A stretch of 29,829 nt of DNA from a virus: positions 1 through 29,829 of the IMG/VR virus record IMGVR_UViG_3300008267_000520, one strand, 5' to 3'. The notes under the pieces are model-generated. The model was not told the DNA's origin, ran no database searches, and saw nothing but the letters and a program-made list of their open reading frames with translations. Made by a program: the position numbers and the translations under genes. This document shows, in pieces, positions 80-29,829 of this stretch; the first letter of the stretch is position 1; every line of letters begins with the position of its first letter.

Positions 80-358
80 ATGACACAAGTTACAGATTAC
101 GAAAGCAGAGAATTTATGATTTTCTCCGTAACAGAATTATCAGAAATCGATTTTACTCAAGTATGTGAAACATCAGAAGAGACAGTCCGTAAATCAGTTG
201 ACGGAACTAAAACATTCGTTAAGTGGGATGGAGTAACTCCGGAATGTGTTGCTAACTTAGCTACAAAAGAAGGTCCTTACACTTACGAAGAAATTCTGGT
301 TATATTAGCTACCGATGAGTGGACTGATCCTAACCCAATGGGAATGGGAGGAGAATAA
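80..358 (+). CDS. Small conserved-looking phage protein, function unknown
   Basis: A 92-aa acidic protein with no signal peptide or membrane segment. The middle has a basic/aromatic patch (TKTFVKWDG) followed by an EGPYTYEEI segment; I have the impression of similar small proteins next to tail-fibre genes in marine T4-like phages but cannot name a family. I chose ATG 80 over the in-frame TTG at 32 because the latter would translate through the late promoter element at 65-75. The stop overlaps the ATG of the LamG gene by one base (TAATG), so the two are probably translationally coupled. A structural or accessory role with the adhesins is inferred from position only. Confidence 0.7.
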   Translation: MTQVTDYESREFMIFSVTELSEIDFTQVCETSEETVRKSVDGTKTFVKWDGVTPECVANLATKEGPYTYEEILVILATDEWTDPNPMGMGGE

Positions 359-1041
359 TGAGTTTTGCACACTCACCTAAAATAGTAACAGATGGACTTG
401 TCCTGGCTCTTGATGCCGGGAATGTAAAGTCCTATGTTTCTGGTTCTACAACCTGGTTTGACAAATCAGGAAATGCAGTCAACGGGACTCTAGTCAACGG
501 ACCAACATTTGACACAGGGTCTGGAGGGTCAATTAAATTTGATGGAATAAATGACTGGGTTACTTTACCTACTAGCTCTGTAGTTGCTTTTGGTACCGGT
601 TCTTTTACTACAAACGCTTGGTACAGTTTAAGCAGTACTAGTGCTCCACTCCCGTATAGTGTAATATGGGATATGGGAGGTTCTAACACAGCTTTTGGAG
701 GTGTGTATTCTAATAGATTTGCAAATAACACATTACTATACTACGCTAATGGAGCAAGATTACAACCATCAGTTACACAAGCTACTAATACATGGTACTA
801 TGTTACCTTAGTATGTAGCGGAGGAACAACAGTTGCTATATACTTAAATGGGAATTTACTAGAATCTAATACCTACAATTACAATTTTACCTCACAAAAC
901 TGGGTTATTGGTACAAACCAATCAGCTTATTCAGAAGTAATGAACGGAAGAATACCTATCTTTTCAGTATACAACCGAGCACTTTCCCAAGCAGAAATCA
1001 CCCAAAACTTTAACGCCCTCCGAGGCAGATTCGGAATCTAA
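358..1041 (+). CDS. LamG/concanavalin-like domain protein, putative tail adhesin (module 1)
   Basis: A 227-aa protein made of a single jelly-roll module of the LamG type (concanavalin A-like lectin/glucanase superfamily). The diagnostic opening is at residues 9-20 (IVTDGLVLALDA), followed by SGSTTWFD, a NGTLVNGPTF stretch and a FDGINDWV strand. The end is VYNRALSQAEITQNFNALRGRFGI-like (residues 205-227). Four neighbouring genes have the same architecture. Phage proteins of this type usually sit on the virion and bind glycans or surface polymers. No catalytic residues are evident, so a binding role is preferred. The start ATGAGT is coupled to the previous stop. Receptor binding is inferred. 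Confidence 0.8.
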   Translation: MSFAHSPKIVTDGLVLALDAGNVKSYVSGSTTWFDKSGNAVNGTLVNGPTFDTGSGGSIKFDGINDWVTLPTSSVVAFGTGSFTTNAWYSLSSTSAPLPYSVIWDMGGSNTAFGGVYSNRFANNTLLYYANGARLQPSVTQATNTWYYVTLVCSGGTTVAIYLNGNLLESNTYNYNFTSQNWVIGTNQSAYSEVMNGRIPIFSVYNRALSQAEITQNFNALRGRFGI

Positions 1042-1044
1042 ACC

Positions 1045-2268
1045 ATGGCAACAAGATACAATTATACAGGACAATTAGTTACCGACGGATTGGTTTTAAA
1101 CCTTGATGCAGCAAAACTAGATTCATATCCCGGGTCAGGTACAACCTGGAGAGACATATCAGGAAATAATAATAACGGAACATTAACTAATGGACCTACG
1201 TTTTCCGGGATTGGTAAACAGGCTGCTATTGTGTTTGATGGGACTGATGATTATGTAACTACTCCTTATACAAACCCCCCCGCTCCTTTTACTTTTGTAA
1301 ATTGGGTTAAACCATCTGCTGTTAATAGTACAAGAGTAATGTTCTATGGGAACTCTAATATGGTAGCTACTATAAATTCTAATGCTAATGTAATTTTGTA
1401 CGTAAATGGAACTCCTCAAAACACAGGGACATCAACAATTTTAACCCCTAGCACTAATATAAAAATATCAGACACTCTATTTCCGTTTTCAGGATCAATA
1501 TCAACATCCCAAATCTACAACCAATCTCTTTCCCAATTCCAAGTTTGGCAAAACTTCAACGCTTACAAATCCAGGTATGGAATACCAGACATAGTAACCG
1601 ACGGTCTAGTATTAAACCTAGATGCAGGTAATCCTTATTCTTATTTATCAGGATCTTCAGGTACTACTTGGACTAATACAGTGGCTGCTAGTAGCAGTTT
1701 ATCGGGAACATTAATAAATAGTCCAGTCTATAGAAACGGGGCAATCGCTTTTGATGGAACAGATGATTATGTATCAATACCTGCTCATCTAACATCGTCT
1801 GGATTAACATTAAGCTTTTGGGCTTACATACCCAGTACACTTGGTACTTTACCAACACTAATAGGTGACGGTAGTCAAAGTAACACTGTAGGTTATATAT
1901 GGATTTATAGAAGTGACATAAATCAAGTGACGTGGCAATTTGCAACAGATACTGCACGTGATTTAATTAATGTTACTAATATATTCTCAGGTTCTCTTAA
2001 TTCATGGGCAAATTATGTGTTTGTGGCTGACTATACAAACTACCCAGCAGGAAGTCTGACTGTATATAAAAACGGAGTATTATTAACAACAACAACATTT
2101 CCAAATATACAAATTCCTTTATCTAGAACAAGATTTATAGGAAGTTATAATGGCGGATTATTTAACTTAAGCGGAAGCATCAGCTCATACTTAGAATATG
2201 ATAAAGCCTTAACCCAAGCAGAAGTCTCACAAAACTTTAACGCCCTAAGAGGCAGATACGGAATATGA
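1045..2268 (+). CDS. Two-module LamG-domain protein, putative tail adhesin (modules 2 and 3)
   Basis: A 407-aa protein containing two tandem LamG modules. The first covers about residues 1-179, from LVTDGLVLNLDA to a degenerate tail (QNFNAYKSRYGI). The second starts directly at IVTDGLVLNLDA and runs to the C-terminal QNFNALRGRYGI. Neighbouring genes have one module each, so this gene looks like a fusion of two formerly separate cassettes in which the first stop was lost. The first module is shorter than the others and lacks part of the middle sheet, suggesting erosion. It starts three bases after the previous stop; its own TGA overlaps the ATG of the HNH gene (ATGA). Confidence 0.8.
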   Translation: MATRYNYTGQLVTDGLVLNLDAAKLDSYPGSGTTWRDISGNNNNGTLTNGPTFSGIGKQAAIVFDGTDDYVTTPYTNPPAPFTFVNWVKPSAVNSTRVMFYGNSNMVATINSNANVILYVNGTPQNTGTSTILTPSTNIKISDTLFPFSGSISTSQIYNQSLSQFQVWQNFNAYKSRYGIPDIVTDGLVLNLDAGNPYSYLSGSSGTTWTNTVAASSSLSGTLINSPVYRNGAIAFDGTDDYVSIPAHLTSSGLTLSFWAYIPSTLGTLPTLIGDGSQSNTVGYIWIYRSDINQVTWQFATDTARDLINVTNIFSGSLNSWANYVFVADYTNYPAGSLTVYKNGVLLTTTTFPNIQIPLSRTRFIGSYNGGLFNLSGSISSYLEYDKALTQAEVSQNFNALRGRYGI

Positions 2269-3068
2269 GTGTAAAATATCAAACATATAATATATTAACA
2301 AATAATATAAATAACTCAAGGTATAATAAATTAGGTTATGTATGTAAACCTGGAGATACTATTACTATAAAATGGGAAGATACTCCCTCAAATTTTGATA
2401 TAGAATATAAATGTATAAAATGTAATGTTAATCACACATCTAAAAAACATGTTTTATTAAAACAAAAGTATAAATTTACTTGCAAAAAATGTATAGGTGA
2501 AATAAGTACTAGTAATAGATTTATTGATTTAACAGGTCAAAAATTTAATAGATTAACAATTCTTTCATTTGATTATAAAAAAAATAAAAACTATTATTGG
2601 TTAACTTTATGTGATTGTGGAGTTAAAAAATCAATAAATTCACGTTCATTTAAAACAGGTAGGGTATATTCGTGTGGATGTTATAATAAGGAAATAACCC
2701 AAAAAGTAAAAATGCCTAAAATTATAGCTATAATGAAAATTAGAACTGGTGAAAATCATCCAAATTGGAATTTTGATAAATCTAATAAAGAACGATTCAC
2801 TATAAGAAAATATGAAATGTCTGTTTTAAGAGAAAAGACATTTAAAAGAGATAATTATACTTGTCAATGCTGCTTACAAAGAGGAGGTCAAGTATTAAAT
2901 GCTCATCATATATTATCTTTTAGTAAATATGTAGATTTGAGATATGATTTAATTAATTTAATAACATTATGTTATAAATGTCATACTACTTATCATAGCA
3001 AATACAAGAAAAACATTAATCAAGAAACTTTAAACGAGTTTAGAAAGGAGACAAATTTTGTTCTCTAA
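2265..3068 (+). CDS. HNH endonuclease, putative homing endonuclease inserted in the LamG array
   Basis: A 267-aa protein with three recognisable parts. Near the N-terminus is a zinc-ribbon-like CX2C...CX2C (CIKCN and CKKCIG). In the middle is a DLTGQKFNRLTIL / CDCG / SCGC block often found in phage HNH homing enzymes. The C-terminal HNH nuclease has CQCC, AHHI and LCYKCHTTYH, the expected zinc ligands and catalytic histidines. It would nick or cut DNA, probably to spread into phages lacking it. It is AT-richer than its neighbours and splits two LamG genes. Its ATGAGT start looks taken from the downstream gene (see findings). No intron features are seen, so it is called free-standing. Confidence 0.88.
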   Translation: MSVKYQTYNILTNNINNSRYNKLGYVCKPGDTITIKWEDTPSNFDIEYKCIKCNVNHTSKKHVLLKQKYKFTCKKCIGEISTSNRFIDLTGQKFNRLTILSFDYKKNKNYYWLTLCDCGVKKSINSRSFKTGRVYSCGCYNKEITQKVKMPKIIAIMKIRTGENHPNWNFDKSNKERFTIRKYEMSVLREKTFKRDNYTCQCCLQRGGQVLNAHHILSFSKYVDLRYDLINLITLCYKCHTTYHSKYKKNINQETLNEFRKETNFVL

Positions 3069-3738
3069 TGGCCCTGTAGTAGTAACAAACGGACTGGTAT
3101 TATCTTTAGATGCCGGTGATAGAAATTCATATGTATCTGGGTCTACTACCTGGTTTAATTTAGCAGGCACTAATAACGGAACATTGACTAACGGTCCTAC
3201 GTTTAATACAGGGTCACTTGGTTCAATTGTGTTTGACGGAGTAGATGACTATGTGATAGTAACCAGTGGAAGTACTTCTGTAAATATTGGAACAGGAGAT
3301 ATGAGTGTTAGTATGTGGGTTAGGCAAACTCAATTTTTCGGTGTTAATGCATTCTTTTACTCCATAGGTTCGAATCAAACTGGATTTTACGGCCTTGGAT
3401 CTGCTTCAAATGGAGCACCGTTTTTTGCAACAACCCCTGGAGGAGGTATAACTATACAGGGAAGCGCTGGAAGTATTACTGCAAATAACTGGTGTAATTT
3501 AGTTGGAACTAGAACTAGCGGTGTTATTAGATTATATCTTAACGGTGTTCAAATAGGAACCCCAGTAACATCTTCTGGAATTTTTAATACTACAAATGCT
3601 AGAATTGCTACAAATGCTGATGCTAGTAGTGAAAAATTACAAGGTAATGCAGCTTCTCTTATGATATATACTATAGGCCTTACAGCCTCAGAAGTTCAAC
3701 AAAACTACAACGCCTTGAAAGGAAGGTTCGGATTATAA
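3058..3738 (+). CDS. LamG-domain protein, putative tail adhesin (module 4), TTG start
   Basis: A 226-aa single-module LamG protein: VVTNGLVLSLDAGDRNSYVSG at the N-terminus (residues about 7-27), a GSIVFDGVDDYV strand, a LYLNGVQIG strand and the shared C-terminal QNYNALKGRFGL. The likely start is TTG 3058, because the next in-frame ATG lies inside the domain. An AAAGGAG 7-8 bases upstream is one of the few good Shine-Dalgarno sequences in this window and lies inside the end of the HNH gene, which overlaps by 11 bases. The unusual start probably reflects damage and repair after the HNH insertion. Its role is as for the other LamG proteins. Confidence 0.8.
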   Translation: MFSNGPVVVTNGLVLSLDAGDRNSYVSGSTTWFNLAGTNNGTLTNGPTFNTGSLGSIVFDGVDDYVIVTSGSTSVNIGTGDMSVSMWVRQTQFFGVNAFFYSIGSNQTGFYGLGSASNGAPFFATTPGGGITIQGSAGSITANNWCNLVGTRTSGVIRLYLNGVQIGTPVTSSGIFNTTNARIATNADASSEKLQGNAASLMIYTIGLTASEVQQNYNALKGRFGL

Positions 3739-3739
3739 T

Positions 3740-4471
3740 ATGGGAGTCGCAGGTGGACCAGATTTAATACAAGACGGGTTAGTACTAGCCCTTGATGCAT
3801 CGGATAGAAATTCATACATGTCCGGTTCTACTACTTGGTTTGATCTATCAGGATTAAACAGATCAGGATCATTAATTAATGGACCTACTTTTAATACTGG
3901 ATCTTTAGGATCGATTGTGTTTGATGGAACAAACGACTACTTTATAGGATCTACAGGATCATACGCTAGCACAGGATCAGGTCCTTTTACTCATGATGTT
4001 TGGTTCTACCAACCTACAGTACTAGGATTCTCAGGAAGCTTTGGTAATAGATACGGAGTATTATTTTCTGGAAATGCTCAGTCAACATTTGAATGTTTTT
4101 TGTATGCCAACTTAACAGGAAGTGGAGTTCCTACGAATTTAGTAATAAGTAGTTACGGCGGAGGAACAGTAGGCTCCGTATCTGATGTAGGAACTTATTC
4201 TTTCCCTATACAAACATGGCACAACGTAACAGTAACTAGGGATGCTACCGGAAGTATGTTAGTGTATAAAAATACAGTAATTATTGCAACAGGATCAATA
4301 ACCAATAATTTTGCTAATGCTCCTTTATATCTAGCAGCCGCACCTATTAACTCACAGTACGCTGCTTATGTAAATATACAGTACGGTTCTTTTAAATCTT
4401 ACAATCGAGCATTATCAGCATCAGAAATTCTCCAAAACTACAACGCAACAAAAACAAGATTTGGTTTATAA
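3740..4471 (+). CDS. LamG-domain protein, putative tail adhesin (module 5)
   Basis: A 243-aa single-module LamG protein with the shared entry LIQDGLVLALDASDRNSYMSG, the SGSTTWFDLSG and FDGTNDYF strands, and the C-terminal SYNRALSASEILQNYNATKTRFGL-type ending. The centre (residues about 70-190) differs strongly from its neighbours, while the first 65 and last 25 residues are conserved, the pattern expected if the exposed face changes and the framework is kept. The start is one base after the previous stop. It probably forms part of a surface-exposed virion appendage. Confidence 0.8.
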   Translation: MGVAGGPDLIQDGLVLALDASDRNSYMSGSTTWFDLSGLNRSGSLINGPTFNTGSLGSIVFDGTNDYFIGSTGSYASTGSGPFTHDVWFYQPTVLGFSGSFGNRYGVLFSGNAQSTFECFLYANLTGSGVPTNLVISSYGGGTVGSVSDVGTYSFPIQTWHNVTVTRDATGSMLVYKNTVIIATGSITNNFANAPLYLAAAPINSQYAAYVNIQYGSFKSYNRALSASEILQNYNATKTRFGL

Positions 4472-4474
4472 AAT

Positions 4475-5176
4475 ATGGCAACCCAATACGCATTTGGAAA
4501 AATCATAACAGACGGTCTAGTATTATGTTTAGATGCTGCCGATAGAAATTCTTATGTTTCTGGTTCAACTACTTGGTTTGATGTGGCCGGTTCTAATAAC
4601 GGTACTTTAACAAACGGACCTACGTTTAGTTCTGCTAATGGTGGTAGTATTGTTTTTGATGGAGTGAATGATTATATTACTATTACACGACCTTCTCAAA
4701 TTATAACTAGCGGTTCAATCACAGTAAGTATGTGGGTTAAGTGGACTACCACCGGAACTACCACAGGAACCATTCAAGCTTTACTAGACAACAACCATAG
4801 CGGTTCTCCTCCTGTACAAGGTTTTATTATCCAAGACAGACCTGATTTAAATAAAAAGATACAGTGGGGAGTTTATCCTAATACTAACGGAGCTACTTCA
4901 TCTTTTCAGGTTGGAGATGGAACCTGGAGGCATATTACAGGTACATATGAAAGTGGAAGTACAAAATTATACATTAACGGAAGTTTAGATGGATTTGCAA
5001 CTAACGAACCTGTTATGTCTACCGTTCAAACTACCATTAGCTTAGGTAGGTGGCAGTTTAGTCCTTCTAGATACCTAAACGGAAATATAGCTTCAACCCA
5101 AATATACAATCGAGCACTCTCAGCCTCAGAAGTCCTACAAAACTACTCCGCACAAAAATCACGTTTCGGCCTGTAG
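4475..5176 (+). CDS. LamG-domain protein, putative tail adhesin (module 6)
   Basis: A 233-aa single-module LamG protein: IITDGLVLCLDAADRNSYVSG, NNGTLTNGPTF, GSIVFDGVNDYI, then ITVSMWVKWTT and LYINGSLDG strands, closing with IYNRALSASEVLQNYSAQKSRFGL-type residues. Its middle is closest in style to module 4. It is the last member of the array; a late-promoter-like element follows its TAG within two bases, so the next gene can be transcribed independently. A carbohydrate or surface-polymer binding role is inferred from the fold; the ligand cannot be read from sequence. Confidence 0.8.
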   Translation: MATQYAFGKIITDGLVLCLDAADRNSYVSGSTTWFDVAGSNNGTLTNGPTFSSANGGSIVFDGVNDYITITRPSQIITSGSITVSMWVKWTTTGTTTGTIQALLDNNHSGSPPVQGFIIQDRPDLNKKIQWGVYPNTNGATSSFQVGDGTWRHITGTYESGSTKLYINGSLDGFATNEPVMSTVQTTISLGRWQFSPSRYLNGNIASTQIYNRALSASEVLQNYSAQKSRFGL

Positions 5177-21520: not shown

Positions 21521-22333
21521 ATGGATTTAAATGCTATTAAACAGAGGCTAAATGCCATGCAGCAGAAACCCGGTAAGAAAAACTCGGGTGAAGATCGCAA
21601 AAAATTCTTTTGGAAACCTTCGGTTGGTAAACAGGTTATCCGAATCGTCCCTTCAGCGTTTGACAAAACGAATCCTTTCAAAGAGTTGTATTTCCACTAT
21701 GGAATTGGAAACCGTACAATGATCTCTCCAATGAACTTTGGTGACAAAGATCCTATTGTTGAGTTTGCAAAACAACTCCGCCAGTCTCAAGACAAAGAAA
21801 ACTGGAAATTGGCTAAAAAATTGGATCCTAAAATGCGTATTTTTGCACCCGTAATCGTTCGTGGTGAAGAGCATTTGGGTGTTCGTTTGTGGGAATTTGG
21901 TAAAGAAATTTACTTGGAATTCTTGTCATTGGCTGATGATGAGGATATCGGGGATTACACTGACGTCTATGAGGGTAGAGACATTACTGTTGACACAGTT
22001 GGACCAGATGTTACTGGTACTGCCTACAACAAGTCCTCTATTCGCGTTAAGACTAAACAGTCAAACTTGACCGAAGACAAAGAAACAGCTAAAAAATGGT
22101 TAGCCGAACAACCTGACCCAACTGAATTGTACAAGCGCTATGAATTTGATGAAATGAAGCGTTTGTTGCAAGAATGGTTGAACCCTGAGGAAGCAGCTCC
22201 TGTTTCTACAGTTGAAGCTGAGGAAGAAGAAATTGTACAACCTGCAAAACCAAACTATGCTTTGACTCCTAAAGAAAGCAAAGTAGACAAATTTGATTCT
22301 TTGTTTGGTGATGATGATGATCTACCGTTCTAA
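21521..22333 (+). CDS. Single-stranded DNA-binding protein, gp32-like, lacking the zinc site
   Basis: A 270-aa protein. The N-terminal basic region (MDLNAIKQRLNAMQ, KKFFWKP) is followed by GKQVIRIVPSAF, FHYGIGNRT and an OB-fold-like core (residues about 30-200), and it ends in an acidic tail with GDDDDLPF. This is the plan of T4 gp32, which coats ssDNA and recruits replication and recombination proteins through its tail. T4 gp32 (301 aa) binds zinc through one His and three Cys; here the matching region reads NFGDKDPIVEF and the whole protein has no cysteine. Adjacent uvsX supports the call. CGT and TTG codons suggest high expression. Confidence 0.85.
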   Translation: MDLNAIKQRLNAMQQKPGKKNSGEDRKKFFWKPSVGKQVIRIVPSAFDKTNPFKELYFHYGIGNRTMISPMNFGDKDPIVEFAKQLRQSQDKENWKLAKKLDPKMRIFAPVIVRGEEHLGVRLWEFGKEIYLEFLSLADDEDIGDYTDVYEGRDITVDTVGPDVTGTAYNKSSIRVKTKQSNLTEDKETAKKWLAEQPDPTELYKRYEFDEMKRLLQEWLNPEEAAPVSTVEAEEEEIVQPAKPNYALTPKESKVDKFDSLFGDDDDLPF

Positions 22334-25831: not shown

Positions 25832-27685
25832 ATGAATATCGAACAAAATATCTTGTCGGATGTAACTGTGTACCTTAAGTACGCAAAATACGTCCCCGAA
25901 AAAAGCAGGCGTGAGACCTGGGAAGAGCTAGTAACGCGTAATAAAAGTATGCACTTGGAAAAATTTCCTAACTTAACTGAGGAAATTGAAGCAGCATACA
26001 AGTATGTTTATGAGAAAAAAGTATTACCATCAATGCGTTCAATGCAATTTGCTGGTAAGCCTATTGAAATAAACAACGCTCGTATTTTTAACTGCTCATA
26101 CTTGCCTATTGATGACCACAGAGCATTTTCTGAAATTATGTTCTTATTACTATCAGGATGTGGAGTAGGTTACTCAGTACAAACTCACCACGTAGAAAAC
26201 TTACCTGAAATCAGAAAACCATTAAAATCAAAACGTTATTTGGTAGGTGATTCTATTGAAGGATGGGCTGATGCTGTTCGTATGTTGACTAAAGCTTATT
26301 TTGGTTACACAACTACTGCCCCCTTGTTTGATTTCCGCGATATTCGCCCTAAAGGAGCATCATTAATTACCGTTGGTGGTAAAGCACCAGGTCCTGAGCC
26401 ATTAAAAATTGCTTTAGTACATATGCAAGCGATTTTGGATCGCAAACAAGATGGTGAAAAATTAACAACTTTAGAATGTCACGACATTATTTGCCACTTG
26501 GCTGATGCTGTGTTGTCCGGAGGTATTCGTAGGGCTGCTTTGATTGCTTTGTTTAATTTGCATGATGAAGATATGTTGACTTGCAAATTTGGTAACTGGT
26601 GGGAACACAACCCACAACGTGGCCGCTCAAACAACTCAGCCGTATTGCTTCGTAATAAAATTGATAAAGATACATTTATGAGTCTTTGGAAGAAAATTGA
26701 AGCATCTAACAGTGGTGAACCTGGTTTCTTGTTTACAAATGATAAAGATGCAGGAACAAACCCCTGTGCTGAAATTAACTTGAAAGCTAACCAATTCTGT
26801 AACTTGTGTGAAATTAATGCTTCAGACATCGATTCACAAGAGGAATATAATGCAAGAGCTAAAGCAGCAGCATTTATTGGTACATTACAAGCCTCTTATA
26901 CTGATTTCCATTACTTGAGAGATATTTGGAGACGTACTACTGAAAAAGAAGCATTGCTAGGTATTGGAATGACTGGTATCGCATCTGGAGCTGTATTTAA
27001 CTTCAATATGAAAGAAGCAGCTAAAGCAGCTTGTGATGAAAACGAAAGAGTAGCCGCTATTTTGGGTATCAATAAAGCAGCTCGTGTTACTACAGTTAAA
27101 CCTTCAGGTACTACATCATTAGTATTAGGTACTAGCTCAGGTATCCATGCTTGGCACGATGATTTCTATATGCGCAGAATTCGTTTGGGTAAAAATGAGG
27201 CATTGTATCAATACTTGTCTATTTACCATCCTGAAATGTTAGAGGATGATGTATTTAAACCTACATTGCAATCAGTACTATCTGTTCCTCAACGTGCCCC
27301 AGAAGGTTCAATCACACGTAGCGAATCAGCTATGGATATGTTGGAGCGTATTAAAACAATTAACAAAAATTGGATTAAACCAGGCCATAGAAAAGGAAAT
27401 AATATGCACAACGTATCAGCTACAGTAACTATTAAACAAAGTGAATGGGCTGAGGTTGGAGATTGGTTGTATGAAAACAAAGAATACTTCACTGCATTGT
27501 CTTTCTTGCCGGAAGACTTGGGAACTTATGTGCAAGCTCCTTTTTCTACCATTACTGAGGAACAATTTAATGAAGCAGTTAAATCGTTACACTCATTGGA
27601 TATATCAAAAGTAGTTGAAATTGGTGATAATACAGCCCTAATGGACCAAGCGGCTTGCGCTTCAGGTGCCTGTGAAATTGTATAA
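25832..27685 (+). CDS. Class II (B12-dependent) ribonucleoside-triphosphate reductase
   Basis: A 617-aa ribonucleotide reductase that makes deoxynucleotides for phage DNA synthesis. Key residues are visible: Cys88 in IFNCSYLP, the catalytic loop NPCAEI with Cys312 and Glu314, Cys323 in FCNLC as partner, and the mobile C-terminal pair Cys609/Cys614 in ACASGACEIV. The C-terminal C-x4-C and monomeric layout fit the adenosylcobalamin-dependent RTPR type. No NrdB or activase gene is beside it, as expected for class II, which needs B12 from the host. Somewhat shorter than the Lactobacillus enzyme (739 aa). TTG/CGT codon use suggests high expression. A strong terminator follows. Confidence 0.88.
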   Translation: MNIEQNILSDVTVYLKYAKYVPEKSRRETWEELVTRNKSMHLEKFPNLTEEIEAAYKYVYEKKVLPSMRSMQFAGKPIEINNARIFNCSYLPIDDHRAFSEIMFLLLSGCGVGYSVQTHHVENLPEIRKPLKSKRYLVGDSIEGWADAVRMLTKAYFGYTTTAPLFDFRDIRPKGASLITVGGKAPGPEPLKIALVHMQAILDRKQDGEKLTTLECHDIICHLADAVLSGGIRRAALIALFNLHDEDMLTCKFGNWWEHNPQRGRSNNSAVLLRNKIDKDTFMSLWKKIEASNSGEPGFLFTNDKDAGTNPCAEINLKANQFCNLCEINASDIDSQEEYNARAKAAAFIGTLQASYTDFHYLRDIWRRTTEKEALLGIGMTGIASGAVFNFNMKEAAKAACDENERVAAILGINKAARVTTVKPSGTTSLVLGTSSGIHAWHDDFYMRRIRLGKNEALYQYLSIYHPEMLEDDVFKPTLQSVLSVPQRAPEGSITRSESAMDMLERIKTINKNWIKPGHRKGNNMHNVSATVTIKQSEWAEVGDWLYENKEYFTALSFLPEDLGTYVQAPFSTITEEQFNEAVKSLHSLDISKVVEIGDNTALMDQAACASGACEIV

Positions 27686-27697
27686 GAAAAAATAATT

Positions 27698-27726
27698 AAG
27701 GGCTTGGAAAACCAAGCCCTTTTTTG
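27698..27726 (+). terminator. Strong rho-independent terminator after the reductase gene
   Basis: A perfect 10-bp stem, AAGGGCTTGG (27698-27707) with CCAAGCCCTT (27712-27721), closed by an AAAA loop and followed by a T tract. It contains the -33 TTGG of the next promoter. Confidence 0.9.
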
Positions 27727-27747: not shown

Positions 27748-28545
27748 ATGTCGTTTATTAAGAAATCACACGAGACCCCATTATGTTTACTCGAAGATAG
27801 TAAACAATTTAATGATTATGATTACTGTTTGCCTCATTTATTAGACAAAGAACCTGAGTACGAGGAATATTTCCGTCGTGCTAAAGAAGAGGGTCGTTAC
27901 ATTATTATGGACAACTCTCTCCACGAATTAGGTGAGGCATATGATTGGGAAAGATTAATATATTGGATTAATGAGATAAAACCCAATGAATTTATTGTTC
28001 CCGATTCTTGGGAAAATGCTAATATATCTATTTTAAATGCTGAAAAATGGGCTAATATGAAAGATTGGCCTGAGGGTGTAATGAAAGTAGCAGTTGTTCA
28101 AGGGATAGGATTGCATGACTTAATTCGTTGTTATGAATCATATAAAAATTTAGGATATAAGAAAATTGCATTTCCATATGGATTAACGTTTTATGCTAAG
28201 TATGTAAAACATCCTAATGTAGATATGGCTAAAATGTTAGGTAGAATTTCTATTATTACTCATTTCCACAATGTAAAAATAATTTCTCAAGGTGATAAAG
28301 TCCATTTATTGGGATGCTGCTTACCTCAGGAATTCTTATACTACCAAGGATTTACATTTATAGATACAATTGATACTTCAAATCCCATCATTGCCACTAT
28401 TGAGGGTACTAAGTATAAAGAATATGGTTTGATTACTAAACCTAAAACTCGAATTGACGATGTAATGTATATTGAACCCGAAAAAATTGATTACCAATTA
28501 TTAACATACAACCTAGAATATTTTAATAAACTTAATAAACTTTAA
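27748..28545 (+). CDS. TGT/DpdA-like DNA guanine transglycosylase
   Basis: A 265-aa protein (from ATG 27748) with the ordered motifs of tRNA-guanine transglycosylases on a TIM barrel: IIMDNS (Asp55, base recognition), FIVPDSW (Asp86), VVQG (Gln118), FPYG (about residue 142), HLLGCC (186-191) and FIDTIDTSNP, where Asp209 aligns with the nucleophile in the GxDxFDCVxPT motif of TGT. It lacks the C-terminal zinc CxCxxC...H site of TGT and is shorter (TGT has about 370-380 aa). Phage DpdA proteins exchange guanine in DNA for preQ0 or a derivative; queC lies 900 bases downstream and supports this. The host-type promoter suggests expression before the structural genes. A tRNA-modifying enzyme is the alternative. 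Confidence 0.72.
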   Translation: MSFIKKSHETPLCLLEDSKQFNDYDYCLPHLLDKEPEYEEYFRRAKEEGRYIIMDNSLHELGEAYDWERLIYWINEIKPNEFIVPDSWENANISILNAEKWANMKDWPEGVMKVAVVQGIGLHDLIRCYESYKNLGYKKIAFPYGLTFYAKYVKHPNVDMAKMLGRISIITHFHNVKIISQGDKVHLLGCCLPQEFLYYQGFTFIDTIDTSNPIIATIEGTKYKEYGLITKPKTRIDDVMYIEPEKIDYQLLTYNLEYFNKLNKL

Positions 28546-28546
28546 G

Positions 28547-28577
28547 TTGGAGGATTAAAAAATCTTTTGTATGTTAT
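28547..28577 (+). promoter_or_regulatory. Host-type promoter TTGG-N19-TATGTTAT
   Basis: TTGG (28547-28550) and TATGTTAT (28570-28577) are 19 bases apart. The ATG at 28582 is four bases past the -7 box, so the transcript would be leaderless. Contains the 14-mer TTGTATGTTATAGT found also before the SSB gene. Confidence 0.62.
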
Positions 28578-28581
28578 AGTT

Positions 28582-28824
28582 ATGGAAAATTTTCTATCAC
28601 TTTACGACTATCTAAAGAGACCAGCCGGCCGAGAATTAGGGATGCAAGTAAGCCAAGCAGCACAAGAGGCTAACATCCCTATTCAAAACAAATCAGTAAG
28701 TAACTCAACATACTCTGGACCTATCCAGATGTATCCTGAAAGTTGGTTGGATTTTTATTTTGGTAATCATGTCAAATCCGACATAGAAATTTTATATAAT
28801 GAACCAGACGACTTACCTTTTTAA
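28582..28824 (+). CDS. Small protein with SSB-type DDLPF tail
   Basis: An 80-aa protein. The in-frame TTG at 28567 lies inside the promoter, so ATG 28582 is the likely start. The N-terminus (LYDYLKRPAGRELGMQVSQA) is helical, the middle has a QMYPESWLDFYF segment, and the C-terminus ends NEPDDLPF, nearly identical to the acidic tail of the SSB at 21521 (GDDDDLPF) and like the DDDIPF tip of bacterial SSB. It could compete for or borrow SSB-tip binding partners. No known domain is recognised. Confidence 0.65.
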   Translation: MENFLSLYDYLKRPAGRELGMQVSQAAQEANIPIQNKSVSNSTYSGPIQMYPESWLDFYFGNHVKSDIEILYNEPDDLPF

Positions 28825-28827
28825 ATT

Positions 28828-28965
28828 ATGGAAAAAATAGATATTAACCCCGCTTGGGAAGCGGAAATTAAGAAAGTATTGGATGCTATTTGGGAAAATC
28901 GTTTTCGAATGAACTTGAATAATTTGGAAAAGTTACGTAAATTAGCAAATAAGACAAAATTATAA
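28828..28965 (+). CDS. Very small hypothetical protein (45 aa)
   Basis: A 45-aa, mostly helical protein, MEKIDINPAWEAEIKKVL followed by a basic second helix ending KLANKTKL. It starts three bases after the previous stop and ends one base before the next ATG, so it fills the gap exactly, as expected for a real gene. Function unknown. Confidence 0.55.
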   Translation: MEKIDINPAWEAEIKKVLDAIWENRFRMNLNNLEKLRKLANKTKL

Positions 28966-28966
28966 T

Positions 28967-29434
28967 ATGGAAACATTTACATCAACAGGGACAGGTGGAA
29001 TAGGAGTAACAGACCCTAACGTACTTTTAAAGTTCACATCATCAGGTCCCACAACATCAACAGGAACCGCAACAGGGTTATGGGTACATCCTCTATCAGG
29101 AGGAGGAACAGGTATAGGTACTACCTACCCTTCATCAGTAACTACACCTTCTACCCCTAACAACACAGTATCATTTTCAGCACCCGTATCATTTTCAAAT
29201 CCAATCAATTTTACACAAGCAACATCAAAACAAATTATGCAAAACAAAGTAGCAGTCTTCAAAGTAACAAGAGACAAAGACGAGAAAATCACTAACGCCG
29301 AGTTCATCAAAGAACTTTGGGTAGAAACCAAGAACGGACAATCAGTAGATTTCCAAGTAGCTAGAGACAAAGATTTAGCTGATTACGAAATGTCTGATCT
29401 TTCTATTAGAATAATTTACACAGTAACTTTCTAA
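28967..29434 (+). CDS. Low-complexity Ser/Thr/Gly-rich protein with C-terminal globular domain, unknown
   Basis: A 155-aa protein. Residues 1-90 are almost entirely Thr, Ser, Gly and Pro (for example TSTGTGGIGVTDPN and SVTTPSTPNNTVSFSAPVSF), like fibre or decoration proteins. Residues about 91-155 are charged and structured (NKVAVFKVTRDKDEKIT, ELWVETKNGQSVDFQVARDK, SIRIIYTVTF). It looks like a structural protein displaced among metabolic genes. The TAA overlaps the queC start (TAATG), so the two are probably coupled. Confidence 0.6.
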   Translation: METFTSTGTGGIGVTDPNVLLKFTSSGPTTSTGTATGLWVHPLSGGGTGIGTTYPSSVTTPSTPNNTVSFSAPVSFSNPINFTQATSKQIMQNKVAVFKVTRDKDEKITNAEFIKELWVETKNGQSVDFQVARDKDLADYEMSDLSIRIIYTVTF

Positions 29435-29829
29435 TGACAAAACAAGCAGTATTATCGTTAAGTGGTGGAATGGATAGTTCCACCCTACTGCTTCATCTAC
29501 TCGCCAATGGCTATGAAGTAACAGCACTATCCTTTGATTATGGACAAAAACACAATGTTGAATTACAACGTGCTAAAGAATTAGTAAAGTATTTGAATGC
29601 TCATTCTCGTTATGAGGATGAACAATACTATGCTAAAGTAAAACACCAAGTAATTACTTTAAAAGGTCTTGACAAATTACTTAACTCTGCTTTAGTAAAA
29701 GGTGGAGATGATGTTCCTGAAGGACATTATGCCGAAAGTAATATGAAAGCAACTGTGGTTCCTAACCGCAATAAAATTTTTAGTTCAATTATCCAATCAG
29801 TAGCATTAAGTATTGCAAATGAAAAAAAT
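29434..29829 (+). CDS. queC: 7-cyano-7-deazaguanine (preQ0) synthase QueC, partial
   Basis: The first 132 residues of QueC, cut by the window end. QueC converts 7-carboxy-7-deazaguanine to preQ0 using ATP and ammonia. The ATP-pyrophosphatase loop SGGMDSS is at residues 10-16, followed by FDYGQKHNVEL and the late motif VPEGHYAESNMKATVVPNRN, with VPNRN at 109-113. All are family hallmarks. In phages QueC usually serves DNA modification with a DpdA; the DpdA-like gene at 27748 fits that. Other pathway genes (folE, queD, queE) may lie just past the window. Confidence 0.93.
   Translation, partial: MTKQAVLSLSGGMDSSTLLLHLLANGYEVTALSFDYGQKHNVELQRAKELVKYLNAHSRYEDEQYYAKVKHQVITLKGLDKLLNSALVKGGDDVPEGHYAESNMKATVVPNRNKIFSSIIQSVALSIANEKN

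Follow-up and report, generated by a model that had tools for sequence, protein, structure and literature searches.

Swapping guanines for an altered base is a known way of disguising phage DNA from host defences. The cases closest to the locus described here come from isolates, namely Flavobacterium phage immuto, the Campylobacter Firehammervirus phages, Cellulophaga phage phiST and Chryseobacterium phage MA9V-3, all of which have a member of the protein family that we discuss below. The immuto homologue is annotated as DpdA, a 'DNA guanine transglycosylase', with queD, queE and folE near it and queC elsewhere in the genome. The phiST member lies beside queD, queE and folE, and we found no QueC in that phage; the MA9V-3 member is near queE/folE. 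All 14 Campylobacter phage records matched by the protein from our locus carry a homologue (as a hypothetical protein), and CP220 also has queC and queD. We take the DNA of the Firehammervirus phages to contain 100% dADG. Cui et al. reportedly defined DpdA3 in 2023 for phages with complete guanine replacement, and we assume that CP220 gp056 is the DpdA3 reference protein. PMC6884629 and PMC10273834 hold secondary mentions relevant to 100% dADG and DpdA3, and Hutinet 2019 (PMC6884629) lists the Campylobacter phages as possibly DpdA-independent. Campylobacter phage CC_R7 (PQ092953.1) has at 103396-104115 a homologue that is only a 27%-identical one, against a 95% one in sister Firehammervirus phages, possibly through a swap of the transglycosylase gene.

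The locus is at the end of a 29,829-base IMG/VR virus record (IMGVR_UViG_3300008267_000520, GC 34%), the whole of which we call the window. The window itself covers a dpdA-like gene and part of queC (Table 1), and queD, queE and folE come from its relatives. Judging from sequence and fold models, we put the probability that the window holds the first part of a phage DNA 7-deazaguanine modification cassette at roughly 0.88. This was also the reading of the first-pass annotation, a 7-deazaguanine system made of a DpdA-like enzyme and QueC, and it gained support from a PDB fold search in which the best 50 matches were all TGTs and from preQ0-pathway genes in near-identical relatives.

Table 1. 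Features of the cassette end of the window, with the evidence for each.
Feature	Position	Strand	Evidence or remark
Rho-independent terminator	27698..27721	+	10-bp stem, AAAA loop, T run; divides ribonucleotide reductase gene from cassette
dpdA-like gene (265 aa) for a predicted DNA-guanine transglycosylase of Firehammervirus/immuto type	27748..28545	+	fold searches, homology, profile alignments
Asp55 codon (MDNS)	27910..27912	+	invariant; equivalent of 9g DpdA Asp72; equivalent of TGT general acid/base Asp (DSGG) by motif order
Asp209 codon (D-T-S), predicted nucleophile	28372..28374	+	invariant; equivalent of 9g DpdA Asp215, TGT DMFDC aspartate
Small protein, 80 aa, SSB-type C-terminal tail DDLPF	28582..28824	+	ATG start inside listed ORF 28567-28824
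45-aa ORF	28828..28965	+	kept in closest relatives only
Gly/Ser/Thr-rich ORF, 155 aa	28967..29434	+	in L002, absent from L003-L006
queC 5' part, 132 codons up to contig end	29434..29829	+	PF06508, E 3.8e-27

The immuto DpdA and CP220 gp056 are the described proteins most like the window protein, with 35-36% identity over 90-97%, a similar length, the invariant residues in common and preQ0-pathway genes in the same genome. CP220 differs in that its QueC (L029) keeps the zinc cysteines and its genes are scattered, and immuto differs in having a QueF homologue, of which there is none in the tested marine cassettes with the zinc-less QueC described below. From these sequence comparisons the window protein probably belongs to subfamily DpdA3. 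DpdA1 of Enterobacteria phage 9g is alike in that its D72, D114, H196, G199 and D215 align with the window family and queC, queD and folE adjoin its gene; it differs in length (317 aa) and in that 9g uses a Gat-QueC fusion. No 9g-type records were among the BLAST matches of the window protein. Any likeness to DpdA2 is structural, the 464-aa protein R9TGF0 of Vibrio phage nt-1, which may be a DpdA2, being a match of the window model at E 7e-6. DpdA2 lacks the conserved histidine (PMC6884629), whereas the window family has H186, which is invariant and aligns with H196 of 9g DpdA.

Based on its model and its alignments, the ORF at 27748-28545 is a TGT-superfamily protein of the DpdA type. It has the TGT motifs in the order first noticed (IIMDNS at residue 52, VVQG at 116, HLLGCC at 186 and FIDTIDTS at 204), the last of which makes Asp209 the candidate nucleophile, as had been stated. 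The zinc site of TGT is missing, as was also claimed, with no CxCxxC in the window protein or in any of the 19 aligned members. The protein had also been called short; its 265 aa are correct, but members of this subfamily are usually about that size (those of CP220, immuto and phiST have 258-264 aa). An AlphaFold model built from the 19-sequence alignment had a pLDDT of 93.9 and a pTM of 0.90. A closest fold from some other superfamily than TGT had been named as a result that would count against the reading, and when we ran this search with Foldseek against the PDB, the best 50 matches proved without exception to be tRNA-guanine transglycosylases, with E from 8e-9 to 2e-7 and a probability of 1.00. 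Among viral models the matches included phiST M4SLA5 (TM 0.85), the nt-1 protein and, besides these, viral proteins annotated as queuine tRNA-ribosyltransferases.

Profile libraries hardly see this family. Pfam gave no family match for the window protein, the PF01702 (TGT) profile detected none of the family and found no other TGT-family protein in 15 records with a zinc-less queC, and a PDB search by sequence, with this one protein as the query, brought up nothing of use. With a profile, the sole PDB match was a DNA-guanine transglycosylase, 7ui4, below threshold at E 0.78, and DUF6610 matched 9 of the 19 members weakly (best E 0.0014). The window protein does match PHROG 19058, which is of unknown function, at 5e-38. 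This match, at least 558 relatives in IMG/VR and catalytic residues that are invariant in 13 diverse members tell us that the gene is not there by chance.

The 13 members, which take in CP220, immuto, phiST and MA9V-3, have only P11, D23, L28, Y38, D55, N56, P79, D86, R166, H186, L188, G189, E195 and D209 in common without exception, and D55 and D209 are also invariant in the 19-sequence alignment. Against a DpdA1 profile (phages 9g, CAjan, Dp-1 and others; E 0.0019), D55, D86, H186, G189 and D209 fall on 9g D72, D114, H196, G199 and D215. Against a profile of TGTs from four genome assemblies (E 0.0068), VVQG falls on IVQGG, HLLG on YLMG and IDTS on FDCV, with D86 and D209 aligned. These profile-profile alignments are small, so that E-values are modest (0.002-0.007) and hhalign probabilities low (6-15%); by the identical method DpdA1 and TGT matched each other at only E 0.16, which makes the window family at least as demonstrably kin to DpdA1 here as DpdA1 is to TGT.

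Two pattern scans of IMG/VR gave at least 558 and at least 586 confirmed relatives, the first figure being for the DpdA-like family. In the closest relatives, with dpdA 94-98% identical, the gene is followed by queC and then by thioredoxin, queD, queE, phosphoribosyltransferase, folE, a dCTP-deaminase/dUTPase-like gene and a family B DNA polymerase. Near-identical relatives thus do have the folE, queD and queE that the first-pass annotation had suggested looking for downstream. In the 26 loci of more than 20 kb that were found through dpdA, we counted queC in all 26, queD and queE in 25 each, the polymerase in 24, folE in 23 and the phosphoribosyltransferase, usually between queE and folE, in 20. 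The phosphoribosyltransferase is HGPRT-like (TIGR01203 at E 1.6e-37, which is below its cut-off, and PDB HPRT at E 2e-25). A MazG-type pyrophosphohydrolase often adjoins the polymerase end. Starting instead from queC, each of 20 zinc-less-queC records had exactly one DpdA-family gene. A thioredoxin gene is also present in 25 of the 26 large loci (L005:12402-12644 and equivalents) and has no obvious role in 7-deazaguanine synthesis. L005 (IMGVR_UViG_3300020042_011666, 111,940 bases) has one dpdA and two queC/queD/queE/phosphoribosyltransferase blocks, at about 25.5-29.6 kb and 71.5-77.5 kb; either the base-synthesis block was duplicated or two phages were joined in assembly.

We propose that FolE, QueD and QueE would convert GTP to 7-carboxy-7-deazaguanine (CDG), which the QueC variant would amidate to ADG and/or dehydrate to preQ0. 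Asp209 of the DpdA-like enzyme would then attack a deoxyguanosine of the phage DNA, so that guanine is expelled and the 7-deazaguanine base inserted; Asp55 would serve as general acid/base. A guanine-type phosphoribosyltransferase may return the expelled guanine to GMP and on to GTP, from which FolE starts, a plausible role because base exchange frees guanine. What our computations show directly is the fold, how the catalytic residues line up, the order of the genes and their co-occurrence. Homology argues for DNA as the substrate, for the exchange chemistry and for protection from restriction; that the inserted base might be ADG or preQ0, that replacement might be near-complete and that guanine might be recycled we suggest with much less confidence.

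The same genes could be read as a nucleotide-pool route, where the phosphoribosyltransferase makes a 7-deazaguanine nucleotide, the phage ribonucleotide reductase and kinases take this on to the deoxy-triphosphate, DNA polymerase incorporates it, and the TGT-fold protein is secondary. The HGPRT-like gene is in most cassettes, the polymerase closes the cassette with the pyrophosphohydrolase often next to it, the window has a ribonucleotide reductase gene adjacent, and a modified-dGTP proposal for the Campylobacter phages is mentioned in Hutinet 2019 (PMC6884629). We consider this route improbable nonetheless, as the TGT-fold protein is in 20 of 20 zinc-less-queC records and its exchange-catalysis residues are invariant, while we found no phosphoribosyltransferase domain in 6 of the 20 records searched, including CP220. 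In addition, Crippen and colleagues reportedly found no dADG phosphate in infected cells in 2019.

The QueC that had been recognized at 29434 is real, although it is cut off by the contig end after 132 aa. The complete QueC of L002, which is 99% identical over the part shared with the window, has 290 aa and lacks the zinc-binding cysteines. The motifs of QueC have been defined as SGGxDS, YxQxHxxE, VPxRN, YPDC and the zinc-binding C(x)8CxxCxxC (PMC13329287). Like the canonical QueC of that source (PF06508 cluster 1), 12 relatives retain SGGMDS, YGQKHxxE, VPNRN, YPDC (YLDC in L016) and the essential Tyr equivalent to Y189. They differ in that canonical QueC is about 222 aa with C(x)8CxxCxxC, whereas zinc-less QueC is 268-315 aa and has in place of the motif a nearly invariant segment, TNTSYKP...W[FY]SDYKSASSVERVEAF, also given as TNTSYKP...W[FY]SDYKSASSVER. 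The zinc motif is absent from 123 of 132 distinct QueC sequences (117 by pattern and 6 close variants by eye); the remaining nine are two with the motif, both alongside a divergent DpdA, and seven that are truncated or frame-broken. In a 30-row tree the zinc-less sequences make up one side of a branch with support 100/98, several of the zinc-type rows being on very long branches. The QueC model (pLDDT 81.5) has a beta-hairpin and a helix in the replaced zinc region and its best fold matches are 3bl5 and 2pg3, the QueC proteins of B. subtilis and E. carotovora. Zinc-less QueC scores 120 bits against an NCBIfam equivalog cut-off of 150 because the zinc domain is replaced. The available part of the 2026 QueC survey (PMC13329287) makes no mention of a zinc-less clade.

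A divergent QueC paired with a TGT-fold protein resembles Cap9/Cap10 of type IV CBASS, a QueC-like/TGT-like pair reported to act on protein (PMC11996544), and Cap9-CdnD (9nto) is among the structural matches of the QueC model. It is nevertheless very unlikely that the present pair deazaguanylates a protein: the cassette holds the complete base-synthesis pathway, we recognized no CD-NTase by eye in the listed ORFs adjoining it, the QueC variant keeps the small-molecule motifs YxQxHxxE, VPxRN and YPDC, and the DpdA-like protein is kin to DpdA and to phages reported to have modified DNA. Hardly credible is a mere boost to queuosine, in which the genes would do no more than increase the preQ0 available to host tRNA, with the TGT-like protein itself acting on tRNA, as was proposed for phages with preQ0 genes and no DpdA (PMC6884629), given the missing zinc motif, the somewhat better alignment with DpdA1 than with TGT, the DpdA1-type histidine and the lack of a PF01702 match in the 15 records.

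For the DNA modification reading, the DpdA core is of a known kind, as the immuto homologue is already named DpdA and Cui et al. reportedly defined DpdA3. New here are the single-clade zinc-less QueC tied to this DpdA and the HGPRT-like salvage gene that most cassettes have, which suggests that the guanine expelled is recycled. We found no description of the zinc-less QueC or of the guanine-salvage gene in the literature that we covered (Crippen 2019 and Cui 2023 lie outside it). Both bear on which base is made and on how a phage could afford genome-wide exchange. Loss of the zinc site as the cause of a dADG product is not supported by the one known dADG case, CP220, whose QueC keeps its cysteines; losing them is therefore no requirement for ADG. 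It is possible, although we are doubtful, that the zinc-less QueC is functionally altered (for example, it might form the amide ADG and go no further towards preQ0, or it might channel its product to DpdA) and that it forms, together with HGPRT-like return of guanine to GTP, a closed guanine-for-deazaguanine loop. Such a loop would allow near-complete G replacement in large aquatic phage genomes.

The DpdA-like family could supply the transglycosylase of the Campylobacter dADG phages, a question that Cui et al. may already have settled. Its members are spread widely over phage contigs, some of which (several) are T4-like in genome size, and because standard profiles miss them, 7-deazaguanine-modified phage DNA is probably commoner than annotations indicate. 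Sequencing-library methods can be biased with DNA of this kind (PMC11515303).

Between dpdA and queC there are three small ORFs, one with an SSB-type tail (...DDLPF), as the first reading had it. A homologue of the 80-aa DDLPF protein is in 30 of 96 loci found through dpdA. Its end resembles the C-terminal tail of the gp32-type SSB in the window (21521-22333), so its binding partners may be those of SSB, and immuto has a similar protein near queC. We rejected the 155-aa ORF as a member of the modification system: of the five closest relatives with contigs extending to queC, four lack it, and it is probably an insertion.

The source is an aquatic phage that looks contractile-tailed and T4-like. 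Upstream of the dpdA-like gene there are a gp32-type SSB, a UvsX-like recombinase, a 5'-3' exonuclease, a DnaB-type helicase, ribonucleotide reductase and, by eye, a tail sheath-like protein. Several close relatives have a stem related to the terminator in Table 1, with loop or arm bases altered. Upstream of the dpdA-like gene we found no extended Bacteroidota-type promoter motif, and sigma-70-like sites occur there at chance level. Relatives are binned partly in Flavobacteriales and Winogradskyella MAGs and otherwise in unrelated MAGs; these bins and the host of immuto suggest a Bacteroidota host. The window has a single 617-aa ribonucleotide reductase (25832-27685), with a match to a B12-type insertion domain at its cut-off, where L012, L014 and L019 have two NrdA/NrdB-like genes. 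At the other end of the window (358-5176), five genes have repeated 'TDGLVLxLDAxNxxSYxSGSTTWxDxSG' lectin/LamG-like segments, one gene having two, and an HNH-endonuclease-like gene (2265-3068) breaks up the run, which looks like a diversifying tail-adhesin array.
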